Shown here in pieces: positions 14,117 to 44,223 of a stretch of 57,653 nt of DNA. The position numbers were made by a program, and so were the translations under genes. The notes below the pieces were generated by a model that worked only from the letters and a program-made list of their open reading frames with translations, was not told the origin of the DNA and searched no databases. Source of the stretch: Desulfotignum sp. (GTDB taxonomy: Bacteria; Desulfobacterota; Desulfobacteria; Desulfobacterales; Desulfobacteraceae). Location of the stretch: assembly GCA_021737695.1 (NCBI GenBank), contig JAIPDL010000014.1, forward strand, positions 1 to 57,653, written 5' to 3'. The first letter of the stretch is position 1, and each line of letters begins with the position of its first letter.

Positions 14117-14134
14117 AACAGGCCTCTTTTCATA

Positions 14135-14992: not shown

Positions 14993-15399
14993 GATTTATT
15001 CCTGAATTCCTGTCACACGCGTTTCACGGGCAGCAGCCAGTTTTTTTCTTTGGCGGCACACACCAGCCGGGTCAGCCCAGAAAAAGTCTGCTCAGCACTG
15101 ATATTGTGGTCAATGAATACCGGATTTCATATCCTTTGTTTTATATTGATTGGGTGAAAAATACAGCACTTCAAAAAAAAAATCCAGGAAAACCGGGGAT
15201 TCGACCCTGAGACAATATTTTTAATGAACGAAAACAGAACAAGCCGGATTCCGGAAAACCGTTGCCTGAAGCGGTGATTCTGTAATTAATCAGCATCCAC
15301 GGGATATCCCGGTTGATTTTGCCGGGGAATGCATTATTCTTATGACTGTTGCCGGGCAGAATCGTCCGGCATATCACCCAATCATTAACGGAGGGACCC
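14993..15399. other. 407-bp divergent intergenic region, with a possible short gene remnant
   Basis: No complete gene is visible. On the minus strand, 15013-15123 is an open stretch of about 36 codons ending in TGA; its composition (NISAEQTFSGLTRLVCAAKE) looks coding-like, and it faintly resembles the C-terminus of divergent polysaccharide deacetylases, but it is preceded by a stop and lacks a start. It may be the eroded tail of a lost gene. The rest should hold the promoters of the divergent kinase and nifX-like genes. Confidence 0.25.
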
Positions 15400-15792: not shown

Positions 15793-15835
15793 CACCTTGT
15801 TGCCGATCCTCAAAAAACAGCACGTAAAGGAGATT

Positions 15836-16366
15836 ATGGATAATCCGGAAGACGATGCGTATTTGAATCAACTGTACACCATGACCCGGGGGGATACAGA
15901 TGCCCAGGCTTCCATGTATGATATCGGTGCGGCCTTAGGCGTAGAAAAATCCGAGGCTGCCAGCCTGGCGGAGTCATTGTTCATTCAGGAACTGGCGGAA
16001 CTCAAAACCCTGTCCGGCGGCATCGGCATCACGGCCAAGGGGGTGAAGGCCTTAGGCAAAGCATCGCCGGGCAATTCCCGGGATGAAGACGTGTCTTTAG
16101 GCCGGGGACCGGTTCTTGACCCTGACAAAAAAAAGCAGATCACCGGACTGCTGGCTGATATCAAAACCGTTCTGGAAAAAGAGACATCTTCTTATCCATG
16201 GATTGAAGAGATGGTGATGGATATCAAAACCATGGAAATCCAGCTGCTGTCCCCGAACCCTAAAACCGGTATTATCCGGGAGATTTTCAAATCCATGCAC
16301 GGGAACCTGAAACAAATTGATGCCAACACATTGAATCAAACCCTGACTGCCATTATTTCAGCATAA
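15836..16366 (+). CDS. Conserved unknown protein, winged-helix-like N-terminus
   Basis: 176 aa from the ATG at 15836, with AAAGGAG 6 bp upstream; the frame is open from 15797. The N-terminal 80 residues (MYDIGAALGVEKSEAASLAESLFIQELAEL, then GIGITAKGVKAL) have the rhythm of a winged helix. The C-terminal half is an alpha-helical segment (KKKQITGLLADIKTVLEKE). No catalytic motif is seen. It lies between the nifX-like gene and a metallo-hydrolase, with 43 and 12 bp gaps, so co-transcription is likely. Confidence 0.6.
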   Translation: MDNPEDDAYLNQLYTMTRGDTDAQASMYDIGAALGVEKSEAASLAESLFIQELAELKTLSGGIGITAKGVKALGKASPGNSRDEDVSLGRGPVLDPDKKKQITGLLADIKTVLEKETSSYPWIEEMVMDIKTMEIQLLSPNPKTGIIREIFKSMHGNLKQIDANTLNQTLTAIISA

Positions 16367-17207: not shown

Positions 17208-17293
17208 ATAAACCGGCAATCGGGTGACTGATTGTCTCTTCCAAAGATATCGTAAAAAAATTTGTTCATAAACTGATTTTCAAGGAGATGAGT

Positions 17294-19255
17294 ATGCCCA
17301 AGGATACCCCTGTCACCAAACAGGTGCCTGCATCGGATTTGACCACTTGTGAAGCCACCCGCCAGATGCTGGAGAAAGCCAGAAAAGACGGCGTTGTTCT
17401 CAACCTGGACCGGGCCGTGGACATGAAACCCTGCCCCATCGGTGTGGAATCGGCCTGCTGCAAACATTGCTTTATGGGGCCCTGCCGGATCAATCCCAGG
17501 GACCCGTACAAAAAAGTCGGCATCTGCGGTGCCACCATCGACACCATCACGGCCCGGAACCTGGCCCGGAATGTGGCCACGGGATCAGCGTCCCATAATG
17601 ACCACGGCCAGCACATCCTTCATTTGTTCAAAGGGATTATCGAAAAAAGCGTGACTGATTTTTCCATTGCCGATACCCTGAAACTGCAAAACCTGGCAAA
17701 TGAGCTGGGCATTGATACTGAAGACCGGTCTGTGGCAGATGTGGCAAAAGACCTGTGCGATGAGCTGGAAAAAACCTTTTCCAATGTGGACGGAGAAATG
17801 CCGTTCATGAAACGGGTGCCCGCCGCCACCCTGGAACTGTGGCGCAAGGACGGCATCGTTCCCAGAGGCGCCATGAAAGAGATCATGGAACTCATGAGCC
17901 GGACCCATATCGGGTGCGACCAGGATTACAACCACCTGATGAAACAAATCAGCCGCACGGCCCTGGCTGACGGCTGGGGCGGTTCCATGGTGGCCACGGA
18001 ACTGTCCGACATCATGTTCGGCACGCCGGCTCCCATTGTGGCGGAAGTGAACATGGGCGTTCTCAAACAAGACCATGTGAACGTGATTGTCCACGGACAC
18101 GAACCCGCCATGTTTGAAGGCATGCTGGCGGGGGTGAACGATCCGTTCTTCATCCAGGCTGCCAAAGACAAGGGGGCCGCCGGCATCAACCTGGTGGGCA
18201 TGTGCTGCTCGGGCGCGGAGATGATGTCCCGTCACGGGATTCCCCATGCCGGCAATTTCTCATCCACGGAAGCCGTCCTGGTCACAGGGGCCGTGGATGC
18301 CATGGTGGTGGATATCCAGTGCATCAAGCAGGGACTGGCCCAGGTGGCAAAATGTTATGACACCCATCTGATCACCACCAGTGACCGGGCACACATCGAG
18401 GGCGCCACCCACATTCAATTTGACGAAACCGATCCCCGGTCCTGCACGGATGAAGTCCTGATCAAGGCCATCTCCCGGTTCGGGTCCCGAAGCCAGCCGA
18501 TCCAGATTCCCAACCAGGTCCAGAAAGGGATCCAGGGATTTTCCCATGAATACATCGAATACATGCTGGGCGGCACGTTCAGAGGGTCTTATTCTCCGTT
18601 GAACGACAATATCATCAACGGCCGGATCCGGGGCGTGGCCGGGGTGGTGGGCTGCACCAACCCCAAGGTCAAGCAGGATTACGTGCATGTGGAACTGGTC
18701 AGGGAACTGATTAAAAACGATGTGCTGGTGCTCCAGACGGGATGTTCCCAGATCGCCCTGTCCAAAGCGGGCTTTCTCACGCCTGAAGCGGCGGCCCTGG
18801 CCGGACCGGGACTGTCCGAGGTGTGTGAGACCGTGGGAATGCCGCCGGTATTGGGCTTAGGGTCCTGTGTGGACAACACCCGGATTCTGATTGCGGCCTC
18901 CGCCATGGTCAAGGCCGGGGGATTGGGCAACAGCATTGCCGATTTGCCCGCAGCCGGGTGTGCGCCGGAATGGATGAGTGAAAAAGCCCTGGCCATTGGT
19001 CAGTATTTTGTGTCTTCCGGGGTTTACACGGTATTTGGTGTGGGATTTCCGGCTCTTTCCGGCACCCGGTTCCATGATCTTTTGTTCAACGGACTGGAAC
19101 AGCAGGGATACGGCAAATGGGGCATGGCCAAGGACCCCATTGAAATTGCCAGACTCATGATCGATCATATTGACAAGAAACGCAGTCAGCTGGGCATTGA
19201 CAAGGCCCGGGAAAGAGTCCTGGTGGACATGAACGACCGCCGGGCCCTGGCCTGA
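17294..19255 (+). CDS. cooS: Anaerobic Ni-Fe carbon monoxide dehydrogenase catalytic subunit
   Basis: About 653 aa, normal CooS length. It oxidises CO to CO2 (or the reverse) at a Ni-Fe-S C-cluster. The N-terminus carries the B/D-cluster cysteines (CCKHCFMGPC then GICG). HGHEPAMFEGM provides the C-cluster histidine region, and CCSGAEMM, GVVGCTNPK, LQTGCSQIALSK and GSCVDNTR supply further cluster ligands. I start at 17294, not 17288, because GGAG at 17284-17287 abuts the first ATG. No cooF, cooC, acs or hydrogenase genes are adjacent, so its electron partner is elsewhere. A TetR gene follows. Confidence 0.93.
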   Translation: MPKDTPVTKQVPASDLTTCEATRQMLEKARKDGVVLNLDRAVDMKPCPIGVESACCKHCFMGPCRINPRDPYKKVGICGATIDTITARNLARNVATGSASHNDHGQHILHLFKGIIEKSVTDFSIADTLKLQNLANELGIDTEDRSVADVAKDLCDELEKTFSNVDGEMPFMKRVPAATLELWRKDGIVPRGAMKEIMELMSRTHIGCDQDYNHLMKQISRTALADGWGGSMVATELSDIMFGTPAPIVAEVNMGVLKQDHVNVIVHGHEPAMFEGMLAGVNDPFFIQAAKDKGAAGINLVGMCCSGAEMMSRHGIPHAGNFSSTEAVLVTGAVDAMVVDIQCIKQGLAQVAKCYDTHLITTSDRAHIEGATHIQFDETDPRSCTDEVLIKAISRFGSRSQPIQIPNQVQKGIQGFSHEYIEYMLGGTFRGSYSPLNDNIINGRIRGVAGVVGCTNPKVKQDYVHVELVRELIKNDVLVLQTGCSQIALSKAGFLTPEAAALAGPGLSEVCETVGMPPVLGLGSCVDNTRILIAASAMVKAGGLGNSIADLPAAGCAPEWMSEKALAIGQYFVSSGVYTVFGVGFPALSGTRFHDLLFNGLEQQGYGKWGMAKDPIEIARLMIDHIDKKRSQLGIDKARERVLVDMNDRRALA

Positions 19256-20176: not shown

Positions 20177-21739
20177 TCAGGTTCTGTAATCTGCAGGATT
20201 AATCTCGTATTTTTTCAACCGGTACTGGAGGGTTGATTTAGGAACCCCCAGCAGGGAGGCGGCCCCGCTCGGCCCGCCGACGATCCCCCGGGTTTCCAAT
20301 AGGGCACTCTTGATGCATCGAAGCTCCGATTCAGCCAGCCTGGTAACCCTTCTCCCGGGCCTTACGACACTGTCTCCGGGATTCGAGTTAAACGTATTTT
20401 CCGCCCCGCTGACCAAATTTTTCAGATCTGACACGGAGATACTTTCACCAGCCTTGATAATAATCATGCGCTTAATCAAATTTTTGAGTTCCCGGATATT
20501 TCCAGGCCAGTGGTAATCTGACAGAAACCGGATTGACCCATCCGTGTATCTCGGCACGGGGCGGTTCATCTCAAACGACTCGCGCTTATTGATCGTATCC
20601 AAGAGATAGGGGAGATCTCCTTTTCGTTCGCGGAGCGGAGGCACGTGGATCTTAATGATATTAAGACGATAGTAGAGGTCCTGGCGGAATTGTCCCTGGC
20701 TGATCAACTTGGGAACATCTCGGTTTGTAGCGGTGATGAGGCGGAAATTGACCTTTACTGACCGGTTGTCACCCACCCTCTCAAACCGATTTTCCTGGAG
20801 AACCTGTAAAAATTTTGCCTGAAGGGCAATGGGAATTTCTGCAATTTCATCCAGGAACACCGTTCCCTGACCCGCCATTTCAAACCGCCCGAGCCTGGTC
20901 GAATCAGCACCGGTAAATGCCCCTTTCGCGTGGCCGAACAGCTCGCTTTCAAACAGCGACGGTGTCAGAGCCGGGCAGCTCACCTTGACAAAAAGATGAT
21001 CCTTTCGAAGGCTTTTCAGATGGATAAGGCGTGCCAGGTGGTCTTTTCCGGTCCCGGTTTCCCCGGTGATCAGGAGTGGGGAATCGATTCCAGCCACTTT
21101 TTCCACCAATTTCATGATATCGTCCATAGCCGAGGATACATATAAAAATTTTTGGGGACTGTAATCTTCAGAAGCGCTCCGGAGGTATTGTTTTTCCTGT
21201 TCAAGGTTATGCTTTTCCTTTATCAGTTGGGTAAACGAGATCATGTTGCCCACGGCAATGGCAATCTGATTGGACACATCCGGGAGGAGTTCTGACAGTT
21301 CCGACAGGTTATCCGGTCGATGCTTGAATGAAAGGTGGAAAGTTCCAATGATCCGGTTCCTCACAATCATGGGGAACGCCACTGTTGCCCCCAGGCCAGC
21401 TCTTACCATGGCACCGATGGAAGGATGTTCCGAGTAACAGGATAGGTCATCAATGATAACCGGTTTTTTGGACTGAATCACCATGTTGGCAACGGCACTG
21501 CTTGCCAGGTCCCGCTCATCAGCTCCAAACCCTTCCGGCTCCACACCTTCGGCTAAAGTAAAATATCTCAGAGATTGATTCACCTGGTTATAAAGAAAAA
21601 TACTGAAACGATCATAACAAAAATGCTTTTTAAGCTCCGTTGACAGGGCCTTGAAAAAATCATCCTTGGATGTATTGGAAATCACGGCATTATTTATTTC
21701 CAGAAGGATCTTGTACTTGGTGGCCAAACTCCAATGCAT
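20177..21739 (-). CDS. Sigma-54-dependent activator, GAF-AAA+-Fis type
   Basis: 520 aa. The N-terminal GAF domain (about 1-170) probably senses a small molecule. The AAA+ domain has Walker A GETGTGKDHLARLIH, the sigma-54 contact loop GAFTGA, Walker B GTVFLDEIAEIP and ATNRD. The C-terminal Fis-type HTH reads GAASLLGVPKSTLQYRLKKY. It is divergent from the frdA-like gene, which has a sigma-54 promoter at 22017-22033, so it is almost certainly the activator of the island operon. The 29-bp inverted repeat between them is its likely binding site. Confidence 0.93.
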   Translation of the reverse strand: MHWSLATKYKILLEINNAVISNTSKDDFFKALSTELKKHFCYDRFSIFLYNQVNQSLRYFTLAEGVEPEGFGADERDLASSAVANMVIQSKKPVIIDDLSCYSEHPSIGAMVRAGLGATVAFPMIVRNRIIGTFHLSFKHRPDNLSELSELLPDVSNQIAIAVGNMISFTQLIKEKHNLEQEKQYLRSASEDYSPQKFLYVSSAMDDIMKLVEKVAGIDSPLLITGETGTGKDHLARLIHLKSLRKDHLFVKVSCPALTPSLFESELFGHAKGAFTGADSTRLGRFEMAGQGTVFLDEIAEIPIALQAKFLQVLQENRFERVGDNRSVKVNFRLITATNRDVPKLISQGQFRQDLYYRLNIIKIHVPPLRERKGDLPYLLDTINKRESFEMNRPVPRYTDGSIRFLSDYHWPGNIRELKNLIKRMIIIKAGESISVSDLKNLVSGAENTFNSNPGDSVVRPGRRVTRLAESELRCIKSALLETRGIVGGPSGAASLLGVPKSTLQYRLKKYEINPADYRT

Positions 21740-22083: not shown

Positions 22084-23811
22084 ATGATCCACGAGACATT
22101 GAAGGCAGATATTCTGATAATCGGTATGGGAGCGGCCGGGCAACTAGCGGCCCTGTATGCCCATGACGAAAACCCCGACCTAAATATCCTGATCGTCACC
22201 AAGGCCCTGAAAGGCAAAGGCGGCTGCAGCAGAATGGTTCAAGGCGGATTTAACGTTGTATTGAATGAAGCCGACTCTCATGAAAAGCATCTCATGGATA
22301 CCCTCAAAGGCGGCCAGTACATTAATGATCAAGATCTGGCCAGGACTCTTGTTGAACAGGCCACCCCCACCATCAAGGAGATGGAGACCCGGTTCGGGTG
22401 TTTTTTTGACCGCAACCCTGACGGCACCGTACACCAGAAACCATTTGCAGGACAATCCTTTGACCGCACTGTTCACAAGGGCGATCTGACTGGAATTGAA
22501 ATGATCAGCCGCATGACCGAACAGATCATGAAAAGAAAAATACAGGTGCTGGAAGAATGCCGTGCTGTAGACCTCCTCAAGGATAAATCCGGTCAACAGG
22601 TCACCGGAGCCCTGATCCTGAATATGAAACAGGGCAAATTCATCCGAGCCGAAGCATCTGCAACCCTGGTTGCCACCGGCGGAGGCCCGACCCAGTATCG
22701 ATTCCACGCCCCCGGGCCTGAAAAATCCGTTGATGGCTTAGGCATGCTCTATCGGGCGGGAACGCTCATGCGGGATATGGAAATGATTCAGTTTCATCCC
22801 ACTGGATTAATCATTGATGGCAGCGTTGTTGCAGGCTCCCTCCTGGAAGAAGGCCTCAGGGGATCCGGTGCCTATCTCTACAACGGCAACGGCGAGCGCT
22901 ACATGAAAAACTATGCGCCAGATGTTGCAGAACGGGCAACACGAGACGTGGTCAGTCGCTCATCCTACCTTGAAATGATGGCTGGCCGCCATTGTGAAGA
23001 AGGGGGCGTACGAATCGACGCGGCCCACTTGGGGGCTGAGTTTGTACTGAAGAATTTTCCCGGCATGTGCAGTCGCTGCGCCCAGTTCGGTTATGACTTA
23101 GCCCGCGGCCCTGTACCTGTGTCCCCTTCGGCCCATTTTGTCATGGGCGGCGCCCGCATCAACAGGGACTGCGAGACGTCTCTGGACCGGCTCTTTGTTG
23201 CCGGTGAAGACGGCGGTGGTGTCCATGGCGGTAACCGCTTAGGCGGTAACGGTATCTGTGAATCCAGCGTCTACGGCAGACAGGCAGGCAAAGCTTTGGC
23301 ACGGTTCATGGCCGATAATGGCACCGCACCGCCAGAAACAGACCCTGAAATGGTAGGAGAACTAATGGCAAAGTACCTGGCTCCCTTTGGCCGTAACGGC
23401 AAAGAAGAGCTCTTTGTCCTGCGCGATGAACTTAAGGAGTGCAACTGGAACAATGTGGGCGTTGTCCGTAACGCCAAAGACATGGCCACGGCCGTAGAGG
23501 AAATCAACGCCATCCGTGAAGAAGCCAAAACGCTGAAGATCTCCGGCACGAGAGCCTACAACATGCCATGGAATATCTACATCGATTTTTTGAACATGCT
23601 GGATGTTTCTGACATGGTGGTCGTATCGGCAATGGCCCGCAAGGAATCCCGGGCAGCCCATTACCGTAGCGATTTCCCGGAACAGGATGACGACAAAGGC
23701 CTTTTCAACAGCTTTCTGACCCGTAGCGCCGACGGCAAGCCGTCTCTTATCACTGAACCGGTTGATTTCATGTATAAATCACTCCGAGAATGCCAAATTC
23801 ACAAGAAATAA
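22084..23811 (+). CDS. FrdA/SdhA-like flavoprotein subunit, probably altered substrate
   Basis: 575 aa. FAD motif IIGMGAAGQLAA (G14, G16, G19). Catalytic positions of the fumarate reductase/succinate dehydrogenase family are present: H238 in QFHPTG, R287 in ATRDVV, H351 in SAHFVMGG and R385 in GGNRLGGN. Two changes stand out. The His that covalently binds FAD in SdhA/FrdA (SHT.. region) is missing: the segment reads GGCSRMVQGG. The substrate-contacting Thr before the conserved Glu (TEG in E. coli FrdA) is Glu here (EEG, 255-257). So the protein oxidises or reduces a dicarboxylate-like compound, but perhaps not plain succinate. First gene of the island operon. Confidence 0.85.
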   Translation: MIHETLKADILIIGMGAAGQLAALYAHDENPDLNILIVTKALKGKGGCSRMVQGGFNVVLNEADSHEKHLMDTLKGGQYINDQDLARTLVEQATPTIKEMETRFGCFFDRNPDGTVHQKPFAGQSFDRTVHKGDLTGIEMISRMTEQIMKRKIQVLEECRAVDLLKDKSGQQVTGALILNMKQGKFIRAEASATLVATGGGPTQYRFHAPGPEKSVDGLGMLYRAGTLMRDMEMIQFHPTGLIIDGSVVAGSLLEEGLRGSGAYLYNGNGERYMKNYAPDVAERATRDVVSRSSYLEMMAGRHCEEGGVRIDAAHLGAEFVLKNFPGMCSRCAQFGYDLARGPVPVSPSAHFVMGGARINRDCETSLDRLFVAGEDGGGVHGGNRLGGNGICESSVYGRQAGKALARFMADNGTAPPETDPEMVGELMAKYLAPFGRNGKEELFVLRDELKECNWNNVGVVRNAKDMATAVEEINAIREEAKTLKISGTRAYNMPWNIYIDFLNMLDVSDMVVVSAMARKESRAAHYRSDFPEQDDDKGLFNSFLTRSADGKPSLITEPVDFMYKSLRECQIHKK

Positions 23812-23864: not shown

Positions 23865-24206
23865 ATGGAAGAAAAATTGAGCATCAAATACAGGAACCCG
23901 CTTCAGTGGGGAGAGTTCGATCCGGACAGACGCAGAAACATGTTCGTGGGTATGTGGGCATGGATGTGGCAGCGTATTTCAGCCCTTGCCATCGTATTTT
24001 TTCTGACACTCCACATCACCTTGACTTATCAGCCCTGGCTTCAGTTTTTGCTGCTCCTGTCCGTTACCTTTCACGCCACCCTGGGACTTCGCGTGATCCT
24101 CCTGGACTTTAACATAGTGAACGTCAAATACCAACGCGCCCTGATCTGGAGCCTCACCGGCCTGGGACTAGTGGTAATGATACTAATCTGGCGATCTATC
24201 TATTAA
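23865..24206 (+). CDS. SdhC/D-like heme b membrane anchor
   Basis: 113 aa from the ATG at 23865, with GAGGGG about 9 bp upstream; the frame is open from 23790 inside the end of the previous gene. Three hydrophobic helices. WQRISALAIVFFLTLH matches the helix 1 pattern of SdhC, and FHATLGLRVILLDF the helix 2 pattern. H50 and H70 are the probable heme b ligands. It is the only anchor gene in the set, so the complex has a single-type anchor. It would link the FrdA-like and FrdB-like subunits to the quinone pool. Confidence 0.78.
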   Translation: MEEKLSIKYRNPLQWGEFDPDRRRNMFVGMWAWMWQRISALAIVFFLTLHITLTYQPWLQFLLLLSVTFHATLGLRVILLDFNIVNVKYQRALIWSLTGLGLVVMILIWRSIY

Positions 24207-24249
24207 CGTTTCTGAGTGAGAACAAAAAAACAAGGAAAGGAGGTCTCTT

Positions 24250-25626
24250 TTGGAGTCAACAAAAGGGAATACCCGCAAAATAGACGTATTTCGTTATGAT
24301 CCGACACAGGGCGGAGATGGGCACTTTGATCATTTCGATCTTTACATTGACGATGAAACCAACACTACCATCCTGGATGTGTTGATCCGGCTCCAGAAAG
24401 AACAGGACTCAACCCTGTCCTTTCGCTATGCTTGTCGGGTGAATATGTGCGGCTCGTGCGGCATGGTCATCAACGGCCGGGAAGGCCTTGCCTGCAAAAC
24501 CAATGTATCCGACTTCCCGGCAAAGCAGGGCATCACCATCCGGCCGCTGAACCACTTCCCTGTAGTTAAGGATCTGGTAGTGGATATGGGCCCTTTCTTC
24601 AAACATTATGAGGAATGCCTGCCTTTTTTCGAACCCAGAAAGATCATGGACGAACCTGCCATCATTCGGCCAGATTCCAAGGAGCGCATAGCAATCGGCC
24701 TTGCCACCGAATGCATTGCCTGCGGATGCTGTGTTTCCAGTTGCACCATGGCCAATTACCACGAAAATTACGCCGGACCCGCCCCCCTGAACCGTGCATT
24801 CACCCTTCTCATGGACAGTCGCGACGCCCTGTATGAAGAACGTATGGATAAGGTCCTTCAATCTTGTTACAACTGCCGTACCGAATTCAACTGTACCGAA
24901 GTCTGCCCCAAGGACATTAGCTGCACAAGGGCCATCAAATACATTCAACGTCTGGCAATAAAGGAACCGTTCAAATCGGTTGCAAAACCCAAACCCGCCC
25001 AGGATGTTGAAAGTTCTCCTGAACCAGAACCCATCATTATGAACACGGCTCCTGGCACCTCGCCGGTTATCCAGACACCTGCCATGGATGTAAAACATGA
25101 CACCAGCCGGTGCAGGCATGAAAGCACGCCTGCCATACCTGTTGAAGCCATAGAGGCCAATAACACGAGTCGGCGAAGTTTTCTTGCCGGCTTAACGATG
25201 GGCATCGGTGCTGTTTCGGTCCTGACCGTGGGGGGGGTATTGGCTGCTTCTTTTGTGGGGCCTGCCATGCAGAAAAAACCGCCCCTGTGGGTGCCTGCCG
25301 GCAGTATCGAAAAATTTCCTGTTGGTCAGGTTTCAACTGTGAACCTGAGGTATACTGAAAATGTCGGTATTTATAAACAGGAACTTGTAAAACCGGTCCT
25401 TGTATGGCGTCCGCCCAACCAGAATAAGATCATTGTTTATAACAGTACCTGCACCCATCTCGGATGCACAGTCCATTGGGACGTAAACCAGAACTTGTTT
25501 CTCTGCGCCTGCCACGGCGGGGCATTTGCATTGGACGGCTCTGTCATGGCAGGCCCCCCCCCACGACCGCTGGATCATATGGAATTCAAGGTTGACAGCG
25601 GAAACCTTTTGATAGCAATGGTGTAA
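24250..25626 (+). CDS. FrdB/SdhB iron-sulfur subunit fused to a Rieske protein
   Basis: 458 aa, TTG start after AAGGAGG. Residues 1-240 are a complete SdhB/FrdB: [2Fe-2S] cysteines C62, C67, C70, C82, then CIACGCCVSSC (155-165) and CYNCRTEFNCTEVC (206-219) for the [4Fe-4S] and [3Fe-4S] clusters. A Pro/Glu-rich linker (about 245-303) leads to an internal twin-arginine motif SRRSFLAG (307-314) and one transmembrane helix (about 311-337). The rest is a Rieske domain: CTHLGC (401-406) and CACHGG (419-424), ligands C401, H403, C419, H422. N-in topology keeps FrdB in the cytoplasm and Rieske in the periplasm. This physically joins Complex II-like and bc-like modules. Confidence 0.9.
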   Translation: MESTKGNTRKIDVFRYDPTQGGDGHFDHFDLYIDDETNTTILDVLIRLQKEQDSTLSFRYACRVNMCGSCGMVINGREGLACKTNVSDFPAKQGITIRPLNHFPVVKDLVVDMGPFFKHYEECLPFFEPRKIMDEPAIIRPDSKERIAIGLATECIACGCCVSSCTMANYHENYAGPAPLNRAFTLLMDSRDALYEERMDKVLQSCYNCRTEFNCTEVCPKDISCTRAIKYIQRLAIKEPFKSVAKPKPAQDVESSPEPEPIIMNTAPGTSPVIQTPAMDVKHDTSRCRHESTPAIPVEAIEANNTSRRSFLAGLTMGIGAVSVLTVGGVLAASFVGPAMQKKPPLWVPAGSIEKFPVGQVSTVNLRYTENVGIYKQELVKPVLVWRPPNQNKIIVYNSTCTHLGCTVHWDVNQNLFLCACHGGAFALDGSVMAGPPPRPLDHMEFKVDSGNLLIAMV

Positions 25627-25627: not shown

Positions 25628-27067
25628 ATGTCAAAATTAAACAAAATCATATGTCAACGAATCGGCTGGGATGCTCATCTAAAACCCTTTCTGTATAAAA
25701 AACTGCCATCAAACCTGGGCTGGTCTGCGACCCTGGGCAGCCTGTGCGTTATTTTGTTTGGCGTCATGGCGGTGACCGGGATGTTCCTTGCCATGTACTA
25801 CAGCCCGTCACCGGACAAGGCCTACGCATCTATTGACTACATCATGAACGAGGTGCCTTTAGGCGCACTCCTGCGGGGATTGCATCACTGGGGTGCCGGC
25901 GCCATGGTTCTGGCAGTCTTCCTGCACCTGTTCTCTGTCTTCTTTTCCGGATCCTTCAAAGCACCCCGGGAACTGACATGGATTTTCGGTGTCTGCCTCC
26001 TTCTGATCACCTTGGGGCTCGGTTTTACAGGCTACCTCCTGCCATGGGACCAGAAAGCCTTCTGGGCAACTGTTGTCAGCGCCAACATTCCCAAGGACCT
26101 TCCGGTGATCGGACAGTTCATCACCAACCTGCTGTTGTCCGGCGGCGGTATCTCCGGTTTTACCATCACACGGTTCTATGCGATTCATATGCTGGTTCTG
26201 CCATCCTTAATGCTAATGCTGATCGCCGGACACATCTACCTTGTGCGCCTCCACGGCGTGTGCGAGCATGAATCGTCACATCCTGCCTGTCCTGCCGGAA
26301 AAACAACCCGGATTTACCGTTTTTTTCCTGAGCACATGGCCCGAAGCTCTGTGGTTTTCCTGGTAGTTCTGGGCATTATTTTCCTCTTATCCCTATTCGG
26401 GGAGATTCCCAGGGAAGATATTGCACGAACCATTGACGAAAATTATCTGCCCCGCCCAGAATGGTATTACATGTGGCTCTTCCAGCTCCTCACTTACTTT
26501 TCAGGTTCTACCGAGGTCATTGGCAGCCTGGTCATACCAACCTTTGGTGTATTGTTGCTATTCGCCCTTCCGTTCATTGAAAAATCAAAATTCATTGGCA
26601 GCGTCAACCGGCCCCTGGCTGTCGCAGCTGGCGTCACCGTCGTTGTCGGTATTGTCTATCTGTCCGTGACCGGATTTGCCGGGACGTTAAGCTACGGTAA
26701 CACCTTCATGATTCCTAGTCGGACCCTGTCAAAGACGGAAAAAAATGGCCTCCGGATCTATGCACAACAGGAATGCGCATACTGCCATAACATCATGGGT
26801 AAAGGTGGCCGCAGGATAGGACCAGACCTTTCGAATATCAAGGCCAAAGGTCGAACTCGGGAGTATTTGGCGTCGTTTATTAAAGACCCTCAGTCCCAGA
26901 GCCGGTTTTCCGTTATGCCGAAATACGCTCTTCAAGAGGATGAACTCTACAATCTAAGCGAATTTATTCTGGCCCTTGATTTTACGACGAATGAACCGCG
27001 CACCATCAAGAATGAACCTCGCACCATCAAGAAGGAGGATATTATACCAAAGACAATCACCCCGTAA
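25628..27067 (+). CDS. Cytochrome b (b6/subunit IV type) fused to a cytochrome c domain
   Basis: 479 aa, start one base after the previous stop. Heme b ligands H86/H100 and H187/H202 have cytochrome b6-like spacing. The Qo-site motif PEWY is at 277-280. About eight helices are followed by a periplasmic c-type domain with CAYCH (383-387) and an axial Met in SVMPKY (M430). The tail holds a tandem repeat of NEPRTIK. The position equivalent to b6 Cys35 is not Cys, so no covalent heme c(n) is expected. With the Rieske domain of the preceding gene this makes a complete quinol:cytochrome c-type oxidoreductase, passing electrons to a periplasmic carrier. Confidence 0.88.
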   Translation: MSKLNKIICQRIGWDAHLKPFLYKKLPSNLGWSATLGSLCVILFGVMAVTGMFLAMYYSPSPDKAYASIDYIMNEVPLGALLRGLHHWGAGAMVLAVFLHLFSVFFSGSFKAPRELTWIFGVCLLLITLGLGFTGYLLPWDQKAFWATVVSANIPKDLPVIGQFITNLLLSGGGISGFTITRFYAIHMLVLPSLMLMLIAGHIYLVRLHGVCEHESSHPACPAGKTTRIYRFFPEHMARSSVVFLVVLGIIFLLSLFGEIPREDIARTIDENYLPRPEWYYMWLFQLLTYFSGSTEVIGSLVIPTFGVLLLFALPFIEKSKFIGSVNRPLAVAAGVTVVVGIVYLSVTGFAGTLSYGNTFMIPSRTLSKTEKNGLRIYAQQECAYCHNIMGKGGRRIGPDLSNIKAKGRTREYLASFIKDPQSQSRFSVMPKYALQEDELYNLSEFILALDFTTNEPRTIKNEPRTIKKEDIIPKTITP

Positions 27068-27184: not shown

Positions 27185-27463
27185 ATGATTCAATTTCTAA
27201 TTCATGAAAAAGCGGACACTGTTGGCGTCGCCACTGTCGTCATCAAGGCCGGCGAAAAGGTCCATGGGCTTTTTATGGACACCCAGGAACCGGTAGAGGT
27301 AACGGTCTCTCAGGATATTCCCCTGGGACATAAAATCGCCATGCAGGACCATGAAACAGACGGAGCCGTCATCAAATACGGTGCAGATATCGGACGGGTA
27401 TCTGAGCCCATCAAAAAAGGTCAACATGTTCATATTCACAATCTGAAAACAAGGAGGTGGTAA
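27185..27463 (+). CDS. suyA: SuyA-like small subunit, (2R)-sulfolactate sulfo-lyase/altronate dehydratase family (SAF domain)
   Basis: 92 aa, a single SAF domain. The stretches [19 protein letters not shown] and [12 protein letters not shown] are those of SuyA proteins as I remember them; altronate dehydratase N-termini are more distant. SuyAB splits (2R)-3-sulfolactate into pyruvate and sulfite. The gene follows a GGAGGAAAG RBS 117 bp after the cytochrome b gene. Its last codons contain the AAGGAGG used by suyB. The natural substrate could be a related sulfo-acid rather than sulfolactate (see findings). Confidence 0.7.
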
Positions 27464-27465
27464 TC

Positions 27466-28629
27466 ATGGGGAATCCTAAAATTATGGCATACAAGCGGGA
27501 AAACGGCCGCGTCGGTATCCGGAATCACGTCATCATCCTACCCCTGGATGACCTGAGCAATGCCGCCTGTGAAAAAGTGGCACACAACATCAAAGGCTGC
27601 AAAGCCCTGCCCCATGCCTATGGCCGGCTTCAGTTCGGTGAAGACCTGGAACTGTTTTTCCGGACCCTAATCGGTACCGGTGCCAACCCTAATGTGGCTG
27701 CGGTGGTGGTGATCGGAATCGAAACGGAATGGACAGATCTCATTGTCCAGGGAATCGCCAAAACCGGGAAACCCGTGGCCGGTTTCGGCATTGAGCGGCA
27801 CGGCGAGATCAAGACCGTGGAAATGGCCTCTCAGAAAGCCAAGGAATATGTGCACTGGGCCAGCGAACGTAAAAGAGAGGAATGCGACTTGAATGAAATT
27901 TGGGTGTCCACCAAATGCGGTGAGTCCGACACCACCTCTGGACTGGCATCTAACCCGAGTGTCGGCAATGCATTTGAAAAGCTGGTGAATATGGGCGGCA
28001 CCTGTTCCTTTGGCGAAACCAGTGAAATCACCGGGGCTGAAGACACAGTGAAGCAGCGGGGCAAAACCCCGGAAGCGGCAGAGCAGTTCATGTATTTCTT
28101 TGACCGGTATGCGGCCATGATTGACCGGAACAAAACCGATGATCTCTCCGGAAGCCAGCCCACCAAGGGAAATATTGCCGGCGGGTTGACCACCATTGAA
28201 GAAAAAGCGTTCGGCAATGTGCAGAAAATCGGCAAGACCATCAACTATGAAGGTGCCCTGGATAAAGCAGTGGCGCCCACCGGTCCCGGGCTGTGGTACA
28301 TGGATACTTCCAGCGCGGCCGCCGAAGCGGTAACGCTGTGGGCGGCTGCCGGATTTGTGGCCCATCTTTTCCCCACCGGACAGGGAAACATCATCGGCAA
28401 CTCCATCGAACCGGTAATCAAATTGACGGCCAACCCGCGGACAGCCGGTGACATGTCCGAACATATAGACTACGATTGTTCCGCCATCCTCCGTGGAGAA
28501 ATGACCTTGGATGAATCCGGGGACAATCTGATCGAGCTACTGATCCGGACCTGCAACGGCCGGCTGACCGCCCAGGAGGTGCTGGGCCATGAAGAGTTTG
28601 TATTGACCAAGCTATATGAGAGTGCATAA
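27466..28629 (+). CDS. suyB: SuyB-like large subunit, sulfo-lyase/UxaA family
   Basis: 387 aa from the ATG at 27466; a GTG at 27457 is in frame but overlaps suyA and the RBS. Family motifs: [18 protein letters not shown] at the start, [50 protein letters not shown] and [11 protein letters not shown]. Conserved cysteines suit the iron-dependent lyase family. The short, split arrangement with a 92-aa partner is the SuyAB layout; altronate dehydratase is normally one longer chain. A TauE-type exporter ends the same gene set, supporting release of sulfite. I am fairly sure of the family and less sure of the exact substrate. Confidence 0.7.
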
Positions 28630-28800: not shown

Positions 28801-29682
28801 ATGGCTGATATTGATTATCAAATTGTTGAAGATGCTGCCAAGGAACTATACATCCGCGCCCTGTGCGACTTGCCGCCGGATGTCCGAGAAGCATTGAAAC
28901 GCGCCTATGACAAAGAAACCAATCCCACTGCCCGTGAAGTTTTTAAGGCGATCTTCAAAACCATTGAGGTGGCGGATGAACATAAAACCCTGATCTGCCA
29001 AGACACAGGCCTTCCTATTTACATGGTGAAAATCGGCTCCCAGTTTCCCTGGAACGGGTTTCAGATAAAAAAACGGCTGGATATCGGTACCAGACGGGCT
29101 ACTCAGGAGTTCCCTTTCCGGGGAAGCTCAACCCATACCCTGACCCGGGTCAACCCCCAGACATCCGTGGGAGAAGGACTGCCAGTGATTCATTATGATT
29201 TTATCGAGGATGCGGACCACTTGGATATCCTTATGATCCCGAAAGGTTCGGGATCTGAAAATATGAGTAAAATGAAAATGTTTTATCCTGCCCATGGGAT
29301 ATCAGCACTGAAAAAGTTCGTCATCGACACAGTTTTTGAAACCGGCGCAAACCCCTGTCCACCAGGTATCATTGGCGTAGGTCTCGGTGGAACGGCGGAC
29401 CTTGTTATGAAACTTGCCAAGGAAGCCATTGCCCGTCCCGTGGGTCAGCGCCATCATGATCCTGAGATAGCCAAAATGGAACAAGAATTAGAAGAGGCCA
29501 TCAATGATATGGGCCGGGGCCCCATGGGTCTGGGGGGGGACATAACTGCCTTGGCAGTCCACATCGAAACCGCCTATACGCATATAACACAGAATCCTAT
29601 TGCTGTTAACACTCAGTGCTGGCCTGCCCGGCGCGCCAGGGCCCAAATACACCCTGATGGCCGAGTGGATTACGGATATTAA
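28801..29682 (+). CDS. Class I fumarase/L-tartrate dehydratase-type hydro-lyase, alpha subunit
   Basis: 293 aa, usual length for the separate alpha subunit. Conserved cysteines for the [4Fe-4S] cluster are C66 (LICQDTGLP), C186 (GANPCPPG) and C273 (NTQCWPARRAR). Also present: GSGSENMSKMKM and GVGLGGTADLVMKLAKEA. The enzyme adds or removes water across a carbon-carbon double bond of a dicarboxylate. The beta subunit follows 21 bp downstream. Fumarate, tartrate and related acids are all possible in this family; the island context suggests a substituted fumarate. Confidence 0.85.
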   Translation: MADIDYQIVEDAAKELYIRALCDLPPDVREALKRAYDKETNPTAREVFKAIFKTIEVADEHKTLICQDTGLPIYMVKIGSQFPWNGFQIKKRLDIGTRRATQEFPFRGSSTHTLTRVNPQTSVGEGLPVIHYDFIEDADHLDILMIPKGSGSENMSKMKMFYPAHGISALKKFVIDTVFETGANPCPPGIIGVGLGGTADLVMKLAKEAIARPVGQRHHDPEIAKMEQELEEAINDMGRGPMGLGGDITALAVHIETAYTHITQNPIAVNTQCWPARRARAQIHPDGRVDYGY

Positions 29683-29703
29683 TCATCACAAGGAGATCAA
29701 CGA

Positions 29704-30300
29704 ATGGCAACAACTCACCACCTTCAAACTCCTTTTTCCGACGACGTCATCAGGGGGCTTCACGCTGAGGACATCGTTTACTTTGACGGAACCCTATTCG
29801 GTATCAGGGACCTGACCCAGATCTATATGTTCGATCAAGGGCATACCCCTCCGGTAAGTCTTGAAGGAATGCCCTGCATTCATACCGCGCCCAGCCTGAA
29901 GAAAGTGGGGGACACCTGGGAAAAAATCTGCGTGGGAACCACTACCAGCACCCGGATGGACCGCTTTACTCCTGATCTTATTGCCCAGTACGGTGTGAAA
30001 GCCATTATTGGGAAAGGTGGTCTTTACGAGGGCAGCCTCAAGGCCATGCAGAAACATGCCGCAGTATACCTAGCCATTGTGGGCGGTTCAGCAGCCCTTG
30101 AAACACTCCAGATACAGGAAGTCGAGGCAGTATACTGGGAGCATCTCCATCCGGAGGCTTTGTACAAATTTCGTGTCAAGGATTTCGGCCCATTGACTGT
30201 GGCCATGGACAGCCACGGCAGGCACCTGTTCGAAGAAGTCAAGGAAGAGACACGGAAACGGCTACCCGAAATCTATCAACGGCTGGGCATCGAAGCATAA
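29704..30300 (+). CDS. Class I fumarase/L-tartrate dehydratase-type hydro-lyase, beta subunit
   Basis: 198 aa. Family motifs: DDVIRGLHAEDIVYFDGTLFGIRD near the start is shaped like the beta-subunit opening; GPTSTRMD-like TTTSTRMDRF; IGKGGLYEG; and VKDFGPLTVAMDSHG at the C-terminus. The segment before it, EHLHPEALYKF, differs from the LGMEAvW of true fumarases and looks more like tartrate-type members, so the substrate need not be fumarate. Together with the alpha subunit it forms the active [4Fe-4S] hydro-lyase. Confidence 0.83.
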   Translation: MATTHHLQTPFSDDVIRGLHAEDIVYFDGTLFGIRDLTQIYMFDQGHTPPVSLEGMPCIHTAPSLKKVGDTWEKICVGTTTSTRMDRFTPDLIAQYGVKAIIGKGGLYEGSLKAMQKHAAVYLAIVGGSAALETLQIQEVEAVYWEHLHPEALYKFRVKDFGPLTVAMDSHGRHLFEEVKEETRKRLPEIYQRLGIEA

Positions 30301-30460: not shown

Positions 30461-31528
30461 ATGAAAACCCGCTATTTACCGAGACTGTTGGCCATAACTA
30501 TTATCATGATGTTTACCCTTGGTTCCATCTTTACGGGACAGGCGGCCGCCAAAACCTATACGTTTAAGATTGATACTTTTTGGGGACCGGAGTTCCATGC
30601 CACCAAAAATTCTGTCCTGCCTTGCCTTGACGTCATTGAAAAAGAATCAGACGGCCGAATCCAATTCAACATTTTTTATGCCCAATCCCTGGCTCAAGCC
30701 CGTGAAGGTTACGATGCCGCTGCCATGGGATTGCTGGACATCTATTTTTTTACCGGACCCAACTACGAAACCGGAAACATGCTTCGGGGTGCCATTTTCA
30801 GTCTGCCATTTTCCCTTCCAATGGGAAAAGACAATGTCAAGGCCGCCTGTCGCATTATGGAGACGGTCTACAACGACCAGGTTATCCAGGAAATTGACTC
30901 CAATATTGTGGTTTTGGGCTGGGGTGTCCTCAGCGAATACCGTTTCATGACCGTCGAGAAAGTTGAAACGCTAGAGGACATAAGGGGCATGACGCTCCGC
31001 TCTTCCGGCGGGTATCACGACGATATTATCAAATCCGTGGGCGCATCGCCCGAATCCATGTCACCCGGCGACATCTACGAAGCTCTGGAAAAAGGAATCC
31101 TTGACGGAGTCTTCCACACGTATGCCGCTGAATACGGCTGGGGAACCTACGAACCCATGAACTATGCTACCGACATGGGCATTGCAACCTTTCCTTATTA
31201 TACCGTTATGAATAAACGAAAGTTTGACCGCCTGCCCAACGATCTCAAAACACTTTTACAGGAAAATTTCAAATCCAGCGCACCTGAAACTGGCTTCTCC
31301 TACTACAACGATGAAAATGAGCATTTCAAAGACATGGGCATTGAGCAGGTAACATTGAGCATAGACGTCAAAAACGAAATGTTAGAAGCAACCATGCCAG
31401 TCTGGAAAAAATGGATCGAGAAATGCGAAGAACGAAACATTGACTGGAAAGCGATCATAAAACCCCTTGAAGCCGCTTGGACAGCCAACAACCTTGAACC
31501 GAAGGGATGGATTAACCTTACCAAATAG
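30461..31528 (+). CDS. dctP: TRAP transporter solute-binding protein DctP
   Basis: 355 aa. Sec signal peptide with cleavage after about residue 30 (TGQAAA/K). The mature protein has the DctP fold; the carboxylate-binding Arg lies in GMTLRSSGGYHDDIIKSVG, followed by EALEKGILDGVF. It binds the import substrate in the periplasm and hands it to DctQM. TRAP systems mostly take C4-dicarboxylates, other organic acids and some sulfonates. AAGGAGG lies 7 bp upstream of the ATG. Confidence 0.88.
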   Translation: MKTRYLPRLLAITIIMMFTLGSIFTGQAAAKTYTFKIDTFWGPEFHATKNSVLPCLDVIEKESDGRIQFNIFYAQSLAQAREGYDAAAMGLLDIYFFTGPNYETGNMLRGAIFSLPFSLPMGKDNVKAACRIMETVYNDQVIQEIDSNIVVLGWGVLSEYRFMTVEKVETLEDIRGMTLRSSGGYHDDIIKSVGASPESMSPGDIYEALEKGILDGVFHTYAAEYGWGTYEPMNYATDMGIATFPYYTVMNKRKFDRLPNDLKTLLQENFKSSAPETGFSYYNDENEHFKDMGIEQVTLSIDVKNEMLEATMPVWKKWIEKCEERNIDWKAIIKPLEAAWTANNLEPKGWINLTK

Positions 31529-31698
31529 ATAGCTGGAACAATGTATTTTTCAAAGGTATTGGCCATTGAAATCGGTTTCCAATAGCCAATACCTAACTTA
31601 ATGCAATTAATTGATCCTGAAAGTTTATGATAACGATCCTGAAGCTACCACACGCTTCAACCTCAATACGGCTAAAACAAATTTTGCGGGAGAGCACA

Positions 31699-32229
31699 AT
31701 GATAAGAATCAGACTTTTTTTTGAGTTTGTGGGGAAACTGATGTCGGTCATGGGAACACTATGTCTGATATTCGTCATGATGTATATCGTAGGTAGTGTT
31801 TTTTCAAGGGCCATCATCGGAAAACCCTTTTTGGGAACATTTGAATTGGGAGCGATTTTTCTGCCGGTTCTTGCGGCCTTCTTTTATATGAACACGGATC
31901 TTCATGACCGGCACATCCGGGCTACCATTATATTCGACATGTTCAGCCCTCGGATTAAAACCGTTTTGAACGCACTCTACTCGCTGATCGGTGCACTTAT
32001 TTTTTTCATGGTAAGCTGGCGGGTATCCATTTATGGGGTCAGGATGCATACCAATATGTGTGAAACTAGTGTCCTTGAAATGCCCGTAGCCCCGTTTATA
32101 TTTGTCTACGCTTTTCTGCTGTTCTTTTATGCGCTCTATCTCATTGTCAAAGGGATCGATTATATAGGCGGATCCGCCTCCATGGCTACCGATGAAGACC
32201 ATCAGAATCAATTAACAAAAAGTGCTTAA
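31699..32229 (+). CDS. dctQ: TRAP transporter small permease DctQ
   Basis: 176 aa from the ATG at 31699; the frame is open from 31627 but the longer form adds a non-hydrophobic tail. GGGAGAG lies 8 bp upstream. Four hydrophobic helices, with conserved GTFELGAIFLPVLAAF and the loop DLHDRHIRATII typical of DctQ. It pairs with DctM to form the sodium-driven membrane unit. Confidence 0.83.
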   Translation: MIRIRLFFEFVGKLMSVMGTLCLIFVMMYIVGSVFSRAIIGKPFLGTFELGAIFLPVLAAFFYMNTDLHDRHIRATIIFDMFSPRIKTVLNALYSLIGALIFFMVSWRVSIYGVRMHTNMCETSVLEMPVAPFIFVYAFLLFFYALYLIVKGIDYIGGSASMATDEDHQNQLTKSA

Positions 32230-32300
32230 ATGAACTTAAATGAATTCGTTTCTTTAACTTGAAACCAGTTTAAATTTTTAAAACCGGTTATGGAGGCAAA

Positions 32301-33605
32301 ATGGGAACTTTTGTACTGGGTGGCATAGTTATCGGTTGTCTGCTTCTGTTGATACTTCTGGGTATGCCCATTGGATTCACGCTATTTTTTAGCGGATTCA
32401 TTGGTTACTGGGCAGCGACGGACTTTATTACGGCCCTGAACTACGTAACGATTAAAGGTTATGGAATATTAGACTCTTTTTCATTCATGTGCATCCCTCT
32501 GTTTGTTCTCATGGGCTTGGTTGCCGCCGAGGCGGGATTCGTGTCTATGGCCTTTGAAACAGCAAAACGATGGCTCTCAAGGGTTCCTGGAGGAATTGCC
32601 CAGGCAACAACCCTGGCAAGCGCATTTTACGGATCTGTTTCTGGGTCAAGCGCGGCAATGGCTGCCTCCATGGGGGTGATTGCCTATCCAGAAATGAGAA
32701 AACTCAATTACAACCCAGGATTCAGCGCCTCCTGCATCGGCATCGGAGGGACTATCGGGATACTTATTCCGCCGAGCGTTCCCATGATTTTCTATGGCAT
32801 CATCATGGACACCTCCATATCACAGCTTTTCATGGCAGGCCTGATTCCCGGTATCATCCTGACAATTTTTCTGCTCATCACCATATGGATCATTGTCCTG
32901 ATAAGGCCAGACTTAGTGCCCAAAGAAACCCAAATGACATATACTTTTGCTGAAATGATCTCGTCTTTAAAGTACATGATTCCCATAGTGATTCTTTTCG
33001 GCATTGTTGTGGGCGGAATATACGCCGGGATCTTTACACCCTCTGAAGCCGGAGCTCTGGGAGCATTTGCCGCCTTCGTCATGGGGTTCATATCAAAAAC
33101 GCTGAACAGGCAAAAAATTCTCACTATACTGAAAGAAGCCGGCCTGATCAGCGGCATGCTCTTTCTAGTCATCTGGGCCGCCCATATTCTAAGCGACTTT
33201 TGCATTGTCAGTGGGTTGGGCAATCAATTCGGAGACCTGATCATGAGCCTTGGTCTTCCCAACTGGGGAATTTTGGTTGCCATCGTTATTGTCTTCCTGA
33301 TTCTGGGCATGCTGATGGAGGTTAATGCCCTGTTTATGATTACCCTGCCTATTTTCGGCCCAATTATTACCAATATGGGATTCGATCCTATCTGGTTCGG
33401 TGTTTTCGCCACCATCCTTGCCGAAGCCTGCTTGATCAGCCCGCCTGTGGGACTGAATGTCTACGTTCTTAAAGGAGTGACCACCGACACAACCATTGAA
33501 AACATTTTCAAATGGATCATGCTTTTCCTGCCGGCCATACTCATCCTGCTGGCGCTGATCGTTATCTTTCCCTCCATTGCTACCTGGCTTCCGAATACCA
33601 TGTAG
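32301..33605 (+). CDS. dctM: TRAP transporter large permease DctM
   Basis: 434 aa with about twelve helices. Typical DctM stretches: LLGMPIGFTLFFSGFIGY, FSFMCIPLFVLMG, GSVSGSSAAMAASMG, GIGGTIGILIPPSVPMI and SPPVGLNVYVLKG. It performs Na+-coupled uptake of the substrate bound by DctP. GGAGG lies about 8 bp upstream of the ATG. Confidence 0.9.
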   Translation: MGTFVLGGIVIGCLLLLILLGMPIGFTLFFSGFIGYWAATDFITALNYVTIKGYGILDSFSFMCIPLFVLMGLVAAEAGFVSMAFETAKRWLSRVPGGIAQATTLASAFYGSVSGSSAAMAASMGVIAYPEMRKLNYNPGFSASCIGIGGTIGILIPPSVPMIFYGIIMDTSISQLFMAGLIPGIILTIFLLITIWIIVLIRPDLVPKETQMTYTFAEMISSLKYMIPIVILFGIVVGGIYAGIFTPSEAGALGAFAAFVMGFISKTLNRQKILTILKEAGLISGMLFLVIWAAHILSDFCIVSGLGNQFGDLIMSLGLPNWGILVAIVIVFLILGMLMEVNALFMITLPIFGPIITNMGFDPIWFGVFATILAEACLISPPVGLNVYVLKGVTTDTTIENIFKWIMLFLPAILILLALIVIFPSIATWLPNTM

Positions 33606-33706: not shown

Positions 33707-34480
33707 ATGTCACCCGTTGAGATACTCATTATCAGCCTAGCGGTTTTCGGTTCAGCCATGATCAAGAACGGTGTCGGCGTCGGTGCCGGTATTTTTCTTC
33801 TGCCCATTCTTACTCTGGTGCTTCCACCGAAACTGGCACTGGGACTGGGTGCTCCGGCCATGCTGATTTCCGATATCGTCGGGGTAAAAAATTACTGGCT
33901 GGAATGGGACAAAAAAGAATTATCATTCCTTATCCCCTTTGCAGCATTAGGCGTCATTTTCGGGTCCTACATCATTGACATCATCCCCGACTACTTGTTC
34001 AAACAAATCATAGGTGCTTTTGCCATAGGTTTTTCATCAATGCACATAATTAAAACAGTCCGGATTGGATATACAAGCAAAGAAAGACAGACATCCGGAG
34101 GACAGCCAAAACGATTCGAAAGTCGCCCGTTCGTTTCTATGCTGTGCGGCTTCCTAGGAGGATTTGCAAGCACAGTGGCCCATGCTGGTGGCCTTATGAT
34201 GAGTTTTTTCATGTTTCAAAAAAATGCCAATTCCCGGATCTTTGTGGGCACTCTGGTCTTTTTTTTCGCTTTGACCAACCTCTTCAAAATCGGGGCTTAC
34301 ATGAAAATCGGGATCATAACCAGCCAGGTCATGCTCCTGGTAGCTTCACTTTCACCGATGATCATCCTCGGCGGCCTAGTAGGAAACCGTTTGAACAAAA
34401 GGATACCTCAGAAAATGTTTCGGCTGGTGATTCTCCTGATCATTTTTTTTATCGGGCTTCGACTTCTTTGGAAAGCGTAA
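33707..34480 (+). CDS. tauE: TauE/SafE-family sulfite/organosulfonate exporter
   Basis: 257 aa with about eight helices. Family signatures: GVGVGAGIFLLPIL near the start, LGLGAPAMLISDIVG, GAFAIGFSSMHI, and in the second half FLGGFASTVAHAGGLMMSFFMF. TauE/SafE members export sulfite or sulfoacetate in sulfonate degraders. Its place at the end of a set holding SuyAB-like genes supports export of sulfite formed by the lyase. It is the last gene before the right repeat. Confidence 0.8.
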   Translation: MSPVEILIISLAVFGSAMIKNGVGVGAGIFLLPILTLVLPPKLALGLGAPAMLISDIVGVKNYWLEWDKKELSFLIPFAALGVIFGSYIIDIIPDYLFKQIIGAFAIGFSSMHIIKTVRIGYTSKERQTSGGQPKRFESRPFVSMLCGFLGGFASTVAHAGGLMMSFFMFQKNANSRIFVGTLVFFFALTNLFKIGAYMKIGIITSQVMLLVASLSPMIILGGLVGNRLNKRIPQKMFRLVILLIIFFIGLRLLWKA

Positions 34481-41023: not shown

Positions 41024-41035
41024 CCATACGATACC

Positions 41036-42941: not shown

Positions 42942-42951
42942 GGATATTTTC

Positions 42952-43587: not shown

Positions 43588-43596
43588 GGAGCTGCC

Positions 43597-44205: not shown

Positions 44206-44223
44206 TCTATCAAGGAGCACACA

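Follow-up and report, generated by a model that had tools for sequence, protein, structure and literature searches.

An FrdB–Rieske fusion suggests that complexes II and III are welded into one enzyme whose substrate is probably not plain succinate

Textbooks treat complexes II and III as separate enzymes, linked solely through diffusing quinone. Each module of the locus described here is already known; what is new is their covalent union and the probable substrate. Escherichia coli complex II (1NEK, 1KF6) shares with this locus the FrdA and FrdB folds, the pattern of Fe-S ligands and several dicarboxylate residues, whereas the fused unit carries a Rieske tail on FrdB, lacks the FAD-linking histidine, has a glutamate in place of Thr244, uses one three-helix anchor and includes a cytochrome b::c. 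Rieske/cytochrome b complexes (bc1, b6f and their relatives) are alike in having four heme-b histidines, a PEWY motif, a cytochrome c, the Rieske motifs and a Tat-type signal anchor; the fused unit differs in carrying its Rieske protein as the C-terminal end of FrdB, with the motif HGG.F, not HGS.Y. Class F complex II (mycobacterial Sdh1, PDB 7D6V) is likewise a complex II with a Rieske-type cluster, but according to the accessible portion of PMC10238741 that cluster lies in the membrane part, whereas the fused unit has a full C-terminal Rieske domain on FrdB and a cytochrome b partner. Complex II is held beside complex III in the ciliate I-II-III2-IV2 supercomplex, there non-covalently, and the same portion of PMC10238741 has complex II absent from all cited respirasome structures but one. 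Thiol:fumarate reductase differs: TfrA is the best NCBIfam match of the fused-type FrdA, at 521 bits under a cutoff of 718, and Pfam placed no CCG (HdrB-like) domain in the fusion. Sulfolactate/DHPS respiration through SuyAB in Desulfovibrio DF1 resembles the locus in its SuyAB-type pair and sulfite-reducing host, as described in the available parts of PMC6278857 and PMC9594981; entry there is by NAD dehydrogenases, whereas the fused unit offers a complex II-like enzyme. Full-text searches of open-access papers brought up no description of an frdB::Rieske fusion. The available sections of PMC12727194 and PMC5317091 do not describe it, and PMC10308238, in its available section, concerns a different SDH type.

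The window, a stretch of 57,653 nucleotides from a Desulfotignum sp. metagenome-assembled genome (MAG), contains a core unit in the order frdA, one three-helix anchor, frdB::Rieske and cytochrome b::c, with the following features in and around it.

20177–21739, − strand: divergent sigma-54-type activator (GAF, AAA, Fis HTH; Pfam), a candidate regulator whose homologues flank many related loci
22084–23811, + strand: frdA, complex II-type flavoprotein, with GGCSRMVQGG replacing the FAD-linking His site and Glu where E. coli FrdA has Thr244 (Pfam, NCBIfam, motifs)
23865–24206, + strand: single three-helix membrane anchor, 113 aa (Sdh_cyt; first-ATG ORF from 23790)
24236–24243, + strand: Shine-Dalgarno-like AAAGGAGG, read from the sequence
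24250–25626, + strand: frdB::Rieske fusion, 458 aa (ORF, Pfam, alignment of relatives)
24250–24969, + strand: SdhB/FrdB domain (about residues 1–240) with ligand motifs for three Fe-S clusters (Pfam, NCBIfam, phmmer, alignment)
24970–25170, + strand: Pro/Glu-rich linker, variable (37–79 aa in the 24 loci measured; comparison of loci)
25171–25269, + strand: twin-arginine pair (308–309) and single membrane helix (RR in 23/23 rows; hydrophobicity; model helix 308–340)
25276–25623, + strand: Rieske domain with CTHLGC and CACHGG motifs, HGG.F type (PF00355 at 357–442; HGG and F426 in 23/23)
25628–27067, + strand: cytochrome b::c, a PetB+PetD-type cytochrome b with 4 His and PEWY in one chain with a mono-heme cytochrome c (CAYCH; Pfam, motifs)
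27185–28629, + strand: SAF (92 aa) and GD_AH (390 aa) pair, SuyAB-type sulfolactate sulfo-lyase (Pfam, comparison)
28801–30300, + strand: fumarase-type hydratase, alpha and beta subunits (Pfam, NCBIfam)
30461–33605, + strand: TRAP transporter DctP, DctQ, DctM (Pfam)
33707–34480, + strand: TauE/SafE (TSUP) exporter (PF01925)

Upstream of the sigma-54-type regulator, positions 17288–19255 encode a CO dehydrogenase (Prismane family) catalytic subunit, and an Nqr-type operon at 39500–46388 includes an NqrA-like protein with a 4Fe-4S dicluster domain, NqrF and a dihydroorotate dehydrogenase.

A first-pass annotation of this DNA had proposed that one frame joins a complete FrdB/SdhB, with its three cluster motifs, to a complete Rieske protein by way of a Pro/Glu-rich linker, an internal twin-arginine motif and one helix, and domain searches bore out both halves and their order. 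Along the single 458-aa open frame, Pfam placed Fer2_3 at residues 10–117, Fer4_8 at 153–223 and Rieske at 357–442 (E 2e-9), and the protein scored 197.9 bits against the SdhB/FrdB model TIGR00384 (cutoff 88). When compared with solved structures by phmmer, residues 11–237 matched E. coli SdhB (1nek_B, 2.1e-43), and separate matches fell on Rieske proteins, the best of them covering residues 394–457 (6.2e-15). The twin arginine is followed by a single hydrophobic helix, which is also present in an AlphaFold model of the fusion; the FrdB half of that model was poor, so we used it for the Rieske domain and helix alone. The start codon is TTG, and the Shine-Dalgarno-like sequence ends 6 nt 5′ of it.

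We looked for homologues with the same fusion and arrived at 28 distinct loci (the window and 27 others), all 28 of which encode FrdB and Rieske in a single ORF. Because the frame is unbroken throughout, including in the cultured isolate Desulfovibrio cuneatus DSM 11391, a chance ORF, a lost stop codon and an assembly artefact are ruled out as its source; nothing was found in favour of an artefact, and we regard its probability as negligible. The Rieske half, used as a query against 389 genomes of the class, gave at least six, the window's included, with a match in a 444–468-aa frame; the anchor and cytochrome b adjoin the fusion in all five others, and frdA is also there in four. In genome G239 (loci L053 and L122), an frdA 69% identical to the window's lies elsewhere on the chromosome than the anchor, fusion and cytochrome b, which may be a misassembly. 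Two weaker Rieske matches among those listed fall in other long frames, of 546 aa (G102) and 647 aa (G329). An alignment-based scan of genome contigs turned up 26 loci, of which 24 were fused, and querying 395 genomes of the phylum with FrdA gave 14 other genomes, five with the fusion (two already found), six with a family that we call f90 and three with another, f119. The fused count leaves out L079, whose contig stops just after FrdB, L082 (FrdB only, 35%) and the copies L058, L060, L061, L062, L070, L111 and L112; close relatives remain among the 28 (L052/L057, L074/L076, L078/L080), and the Rieske match of L078 is incomplete at its end. By record title, fused loci come from Desulfobacterales, Desulfocapsaceae, Desulfovibrio, Solidesulfovibrio, Desulfarculaceae and Syntrophaceae, while Nitrospirae, Acidobacteria and Sumerlaeota appear as MAG labels only. 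None of the 11 same-genus genomes among those listed in the Rieske-half search had a comparable match, and the window's lineage therefore likely gained the fusion by acquisition.

Across the 23 aligned fusions, FrdB cysteines 62, 67, 70, 82, 155, 158, 161, 165, 209, 215 and 219, the Rieske residues C401, H403, C406, C419, C421 and H422, and the twin arginine were all invariant. RRxF was present in 27 of 28 loci, with a single hydrophobic helix after the RR in 27 of 28. This comparison strengthens the earlier topology argument, in which FrdB would stay in the cytoplasm and the Rieske half would reach the periplasm, presumably through Tat export, although such export poses a puzzle in that a folded Fe-S protein precedes the internal signal. 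TatC was found in 9 of the 11 fusion hosts searched, and was not found in the window's MAG (88% complete) and in G328 (83%). Many linkers contain in-frame start codons, and internal initiation or proteolysis could in practice split the halves into two proteins; this seems very unlikely to us, since a Shine-Dalgarno-like site accompanies an internal start before the Rieske part in just 2 of 24 testable loci, and none was found in the window. No conserved internal start was found among these loci. Substitution of HGG.F for HGS.Y is expected, as a tuning rule, to lower the potential of a Rieske cluster, and the presence of HGG.F in 23/23 aligned fusions thus leads us to expect a low potential here.

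Pfam confirmed that the next gene is, as annotated, cytochrome b fused to cytochrome c, and it comes next in every fused locus whose DNA reaches that far. All four heme-b histidines were present in 27/27 fused-type cytochromes b, PEWY in 23/26 (PDWY in the other 3/26) and CxxCH in 24/24 of the cytochrome c domains; a PEWY motif and a mono-heme cytochrome c are both hallmarks of enzymes that oxidise quinol. The anchor has two histidines that are invariant in 27/27 fused-type sequences. Its single set of three helices is unlike the two 3-helix anchors or one 5–6-helix anchor of complex II, and no second anchor ORF was found in the gaps between window genes. A single three-helix anchor implies a putative homodimer, which counts against the explanation proposed below.

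FrdA keeps the dicarboxylate-binding QFHPTG, the TRDVVSR-type arginine, AHxxMGG and HGxNR, L067 being truncated and L076 partly broken. At the position of the active-site Thr244 of E. coli FrdA, a glutamate was found in 37/37 rows of this FrdA clade, against Thr or Ser in 21/21 other complex II homologues, mostly from the same order. The FAD-linking histidine, which is not universal in complex II, was missing from 36/36 rows covering the site; of three unrelated complex II sequences that span it one has the histidine, as do 3/3 SdhA controls. Complex II variants without this histidine retain fumarate reduction and lose succinate oxidation, according to the accessible text of PMC5773532; taken with that result, the lack of a covalently bound flavin favours reduction over the oxidation of a succinate-like acid.

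Around the unit, 21 of the 28 fused loci have fumarase-type genes; of the seven without them, five sit on contigs that break off within the unit or close to it. The SAF/GD_AH pair was found in 14 loci and TauE in 10, neither being found in the remaining 14 and 18, respectively, within the DNA examined; TauE was also present in 3/3 f119 loci, and the f90 loci had neither. The window's GD_AH matched 313 plasmid records, 13 of them at 60–66% identity and the next at 38.5%, and the closest (65.8%; SAF 47%) adjoins hpsN/hpsO of Cupriavidus pinatubonensis, whose SuyAB is described in the available part of PMC6278857. The alpha subunit of the hydratase scores above the cutoff of the fumarate hydratase model (315 against 276 bits). 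In locus L081, the gene directly preceding frdA encodes a phosphosulfolactate synthase (ComA, 6877–7689; 330 bits, cutoff 280), while downstream dsrA and dsrB (13844–16150, same strand, both over cutoff) are separated from cytochrome b::c by one nitrilase-type gene; none of the other loci yielded ComA or dsr. In L056, a SucCD-type ligase and a 2-oxoacid:ferredoxin oxidoreductase adjoin the unit.

Among 13 fusion hosts, dsrA was over cutoff in 8 and below cutoff in a ninth. The dsrA-negative hosts are the four rated less than 90% complete, including the window's MAG (no dsrA over cutoff), and dsrA was found in 9/9 hosts rated at least 94% complete or unrated. Cytochrome c3 family proteins were found in all 13 hosts and heme-copper oxidase in seven. 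The fusion was the only FrdB found in four hosts, one of them rated 100% complete, which suggests that the enzyme may serve succinate too. No other Rieske protein was found in the window's genome.

FrdA-like proteins on plasmids fell into two sets among the 115 records in the matches listed, one at 43% identity or more and one of ordinary SdhA, FrdA and NadB at no more than 34.7%; we examined 10 loci of the former (L139–L148) and five of the latter. The first set (43–49%) has the signature GC[ST]RMVQGG and EEG in 10/10, with TauE nearby in eight, a fumarase pair in eight and a UxaA pair in four, whereas the five ordinary homologues had none of these nearby, and FAD-linking His and Thr were present in 3/3 SdhA. 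Two of the UxaA pairs are 65% identical to the window's pair and two, haloarchaeal, are 31–33% identical; one signature locus also bears sulfite dehydrogenase genes. Hosts of the signature set are Methylobacterium, Pseudomonas, Sulfitobacter, Paracoccus, Pseudorhizobium and haloarchaea. On the haloarchaeal plasmids L143 and L144, a gene annotated argH, possibly a lyase-type hydratase, replaces the fumarase pair by the frdA-like gene. These plasmid enzymes thus share the FrdA signature and the neighbours of the fused unit, but their FrdB is unfused, the eight bacterial ones have two anchors, and neither Rieske nor cytochrome b lies beside them in the DNA examined. Taken together, the signature and ordinary neighbourhoods make the whole FrdA family look sulfonate-linked, and the Rieske fusion could be an anaerobic elaboration of it.

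The fused rows formed one clade in our trees of FrdA (96/96), FrdB (99/96) and cytochrome b (100/99) and, with weak support, in that of Rieske (79/80); three unlinked rows in the tree set have very long branches. The f90 family is sister to the fused type in FrdA and FrdB (95/94 and 96/86) and has an unfused order of Rieske, cytochrome b::c, frdA, anchor and frdB, with one of six contigs ending before frdB. Its cytochrome b is placed far from the fused type, lacks the PEWY Glu in 6/6 (L113–L118) and a heme His in some rows, and may therefore be reduced or altered. The f119 loci have FrdA, FrdB and anchors, with no bc genes in the 10.7–18 kb examined.

Most likely, then, complexes II and III are welded into one enzyme here, and its substrate is probably not plain succinate, given the missing FAD-linking histidine, the active-site glutamate and the fumarase-like, SuyAB and TauE neighbours. 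The gene surroundings suggest that the joined machine uses sulfonates. 3-Sulfopropionate is succinate with one carboxylate swapped for a sulfonate, and we lean towards a welded complex II–III in which FrdA would most likely be a 3-sulfopropionate dehydrogenase with the hydratase and SuyAB downstream, a reading that we consider somewhat probable. From sequence comparisons we infer how such a complex would be assembled, its cofactors, substrate and direction, and how it would hand over quinone. The FrdB half would sit on FrdA at the cytoplasmic side, and the Rieske half, exported and anchored by the internal twin-arginine signal, would shuttle in the periplasm from the Qo site of cytochrome b to the fused cytochrome c domain and back. 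FrdA would dehydrogenate 3-sulfopropionate to sulfoacrylate, the fumarase-like hydratase would add water to give sulfolactate, and SuyAB would convert this to pyruvate and sulfite, with sulfite respired by Dsr-bearing hosts. Electrons would pass from FAD through the Fe-S clusters, menaquinone and Rieske/cytochrome b to cytochrome c, with the quinone step inside one complex, and the bc part would deliver them to a periplasmic cytochrome c, pulling the dehydrogenation. More tentatively, this may be the first covalently unified complex II–III and supply the entry enzyme that 3-sulfopropionate respiration has been missing, with menaquinol handed directly to the fused Q-cycle module; it is just as speculative that the bc step would pull an uphill dehydrogenation while SuyAB feeds sulfite to Dsr within the same cell.

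Several observations count against the sulfonate reading, namely the restriction of SAF/GD_AH and TauE to some loci and their absence from f90, the distance of the haloarchaeal GD_AH proteins and the fumarate hydratase score of the alpha subunit; the window's MAG, without dsrA over cutoff and without TatC, counts against the proposed explanation as well. The first-pass annotation had the fusion coupling dicarboxylate oxidation to a bc-type complex. The cytochrome b::c link stands, but 'dicarboxylate oxidation' is doubtful, because both the residues that mark this FrdA and the genes around it indicate a sulfonated analogue and because the FAD-anchoring histidine is missing (with PMC5773532).

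If the fusion were a mere assembly or targeting tether, with complexes II and III acting independently on the quinone pool, the long, variable linker, the unfused f90 and the aerobic and haloarchaeal relatives without Rieske or cytochrome b genes would be readily accommodated; retention of the fusion in 28 diverse loci, with cytochrome b::c next wherever the DNA reaches, makes this rather unlikely in our estimation. The complex might also run as a reductase, a low-potential periplasmic cytochrome c driving a Q cycle in reverse so that fumarate or sulfoacrylate is reduced. PEWY and the mono-heme cytochrome c, as marks of quinol oxidation, and a downstream SuyAB that fits oxidative catabolism speak against this mode. 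It gains from FrdA scoring highest on TfrA, from cytochrome c3 in every host when only seven have heme-copper oxidase, and from the missing FAD histidine read with the accessible text of PMC5773532, and we regard it as possible without favouring it.

A welded complex could also be imagined to work on ordinary succinate and fumarate, as the other dicarboxylate residues of FrdA, the 21 loci with fumarase-type genes, the four hosts without another FrdB and the ligase and oxidoreductase beside the unit in L056 would allow. The invariant active-site glutamate and the SuyAB, TauE, ComA and dsrAB neighbours argue against that substrate, and SucCD-type ligases may also act as 3-sulfopropionate-CoA ligases (PMC11489063, available portion); we hold this alternative to be a minority possibility. 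Another sulfonate is improbable: sulfosuccinate, for example, could pass through sulfofumarate and sulfomalate to oxaloacetate and sulfite using the same genes, and the TRAP, TTT and DctA-type carriers are of dicarboxylate type, but SuyB relatives work on sulfolactate (PMC6278857, in part) and a comparable route has already been reported for 3-sulfopropionate. That route, through sulfoacrylate and sulfolactate in Roseovarius, comes from a thesis cited in the available portion of PMC11489063, which also reports a sulfite reducer that respires with 3-sulfopropionate as acceptor and describes the use of this compound by sulfite reducers as still to be investigated; the consulted text of PMC9594981 likewise says that 3-sulfopropionate needs study in anaerobes.

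If 3-sulfopropionate is indeed the substrate, the fused unit would answer the question raised in those two sources of how anaerobic sulfite reducers break down this gut sulfonate, which ends as H2S. A chain shared by complexes II and III would also make quinone channelling testable through one linker cut, and a cultured host of the fusion exists in D. cuneatus DSM 11391. In that isolate, the gene before frdA has sulfolactaldehyde 3-reductase as its best match, below cutoff (322.9 of 348), and this YihU/DhpA-like gene recalls the DHPS pathway as it appears in the available parts of PMC6278857 and PMC9594981.
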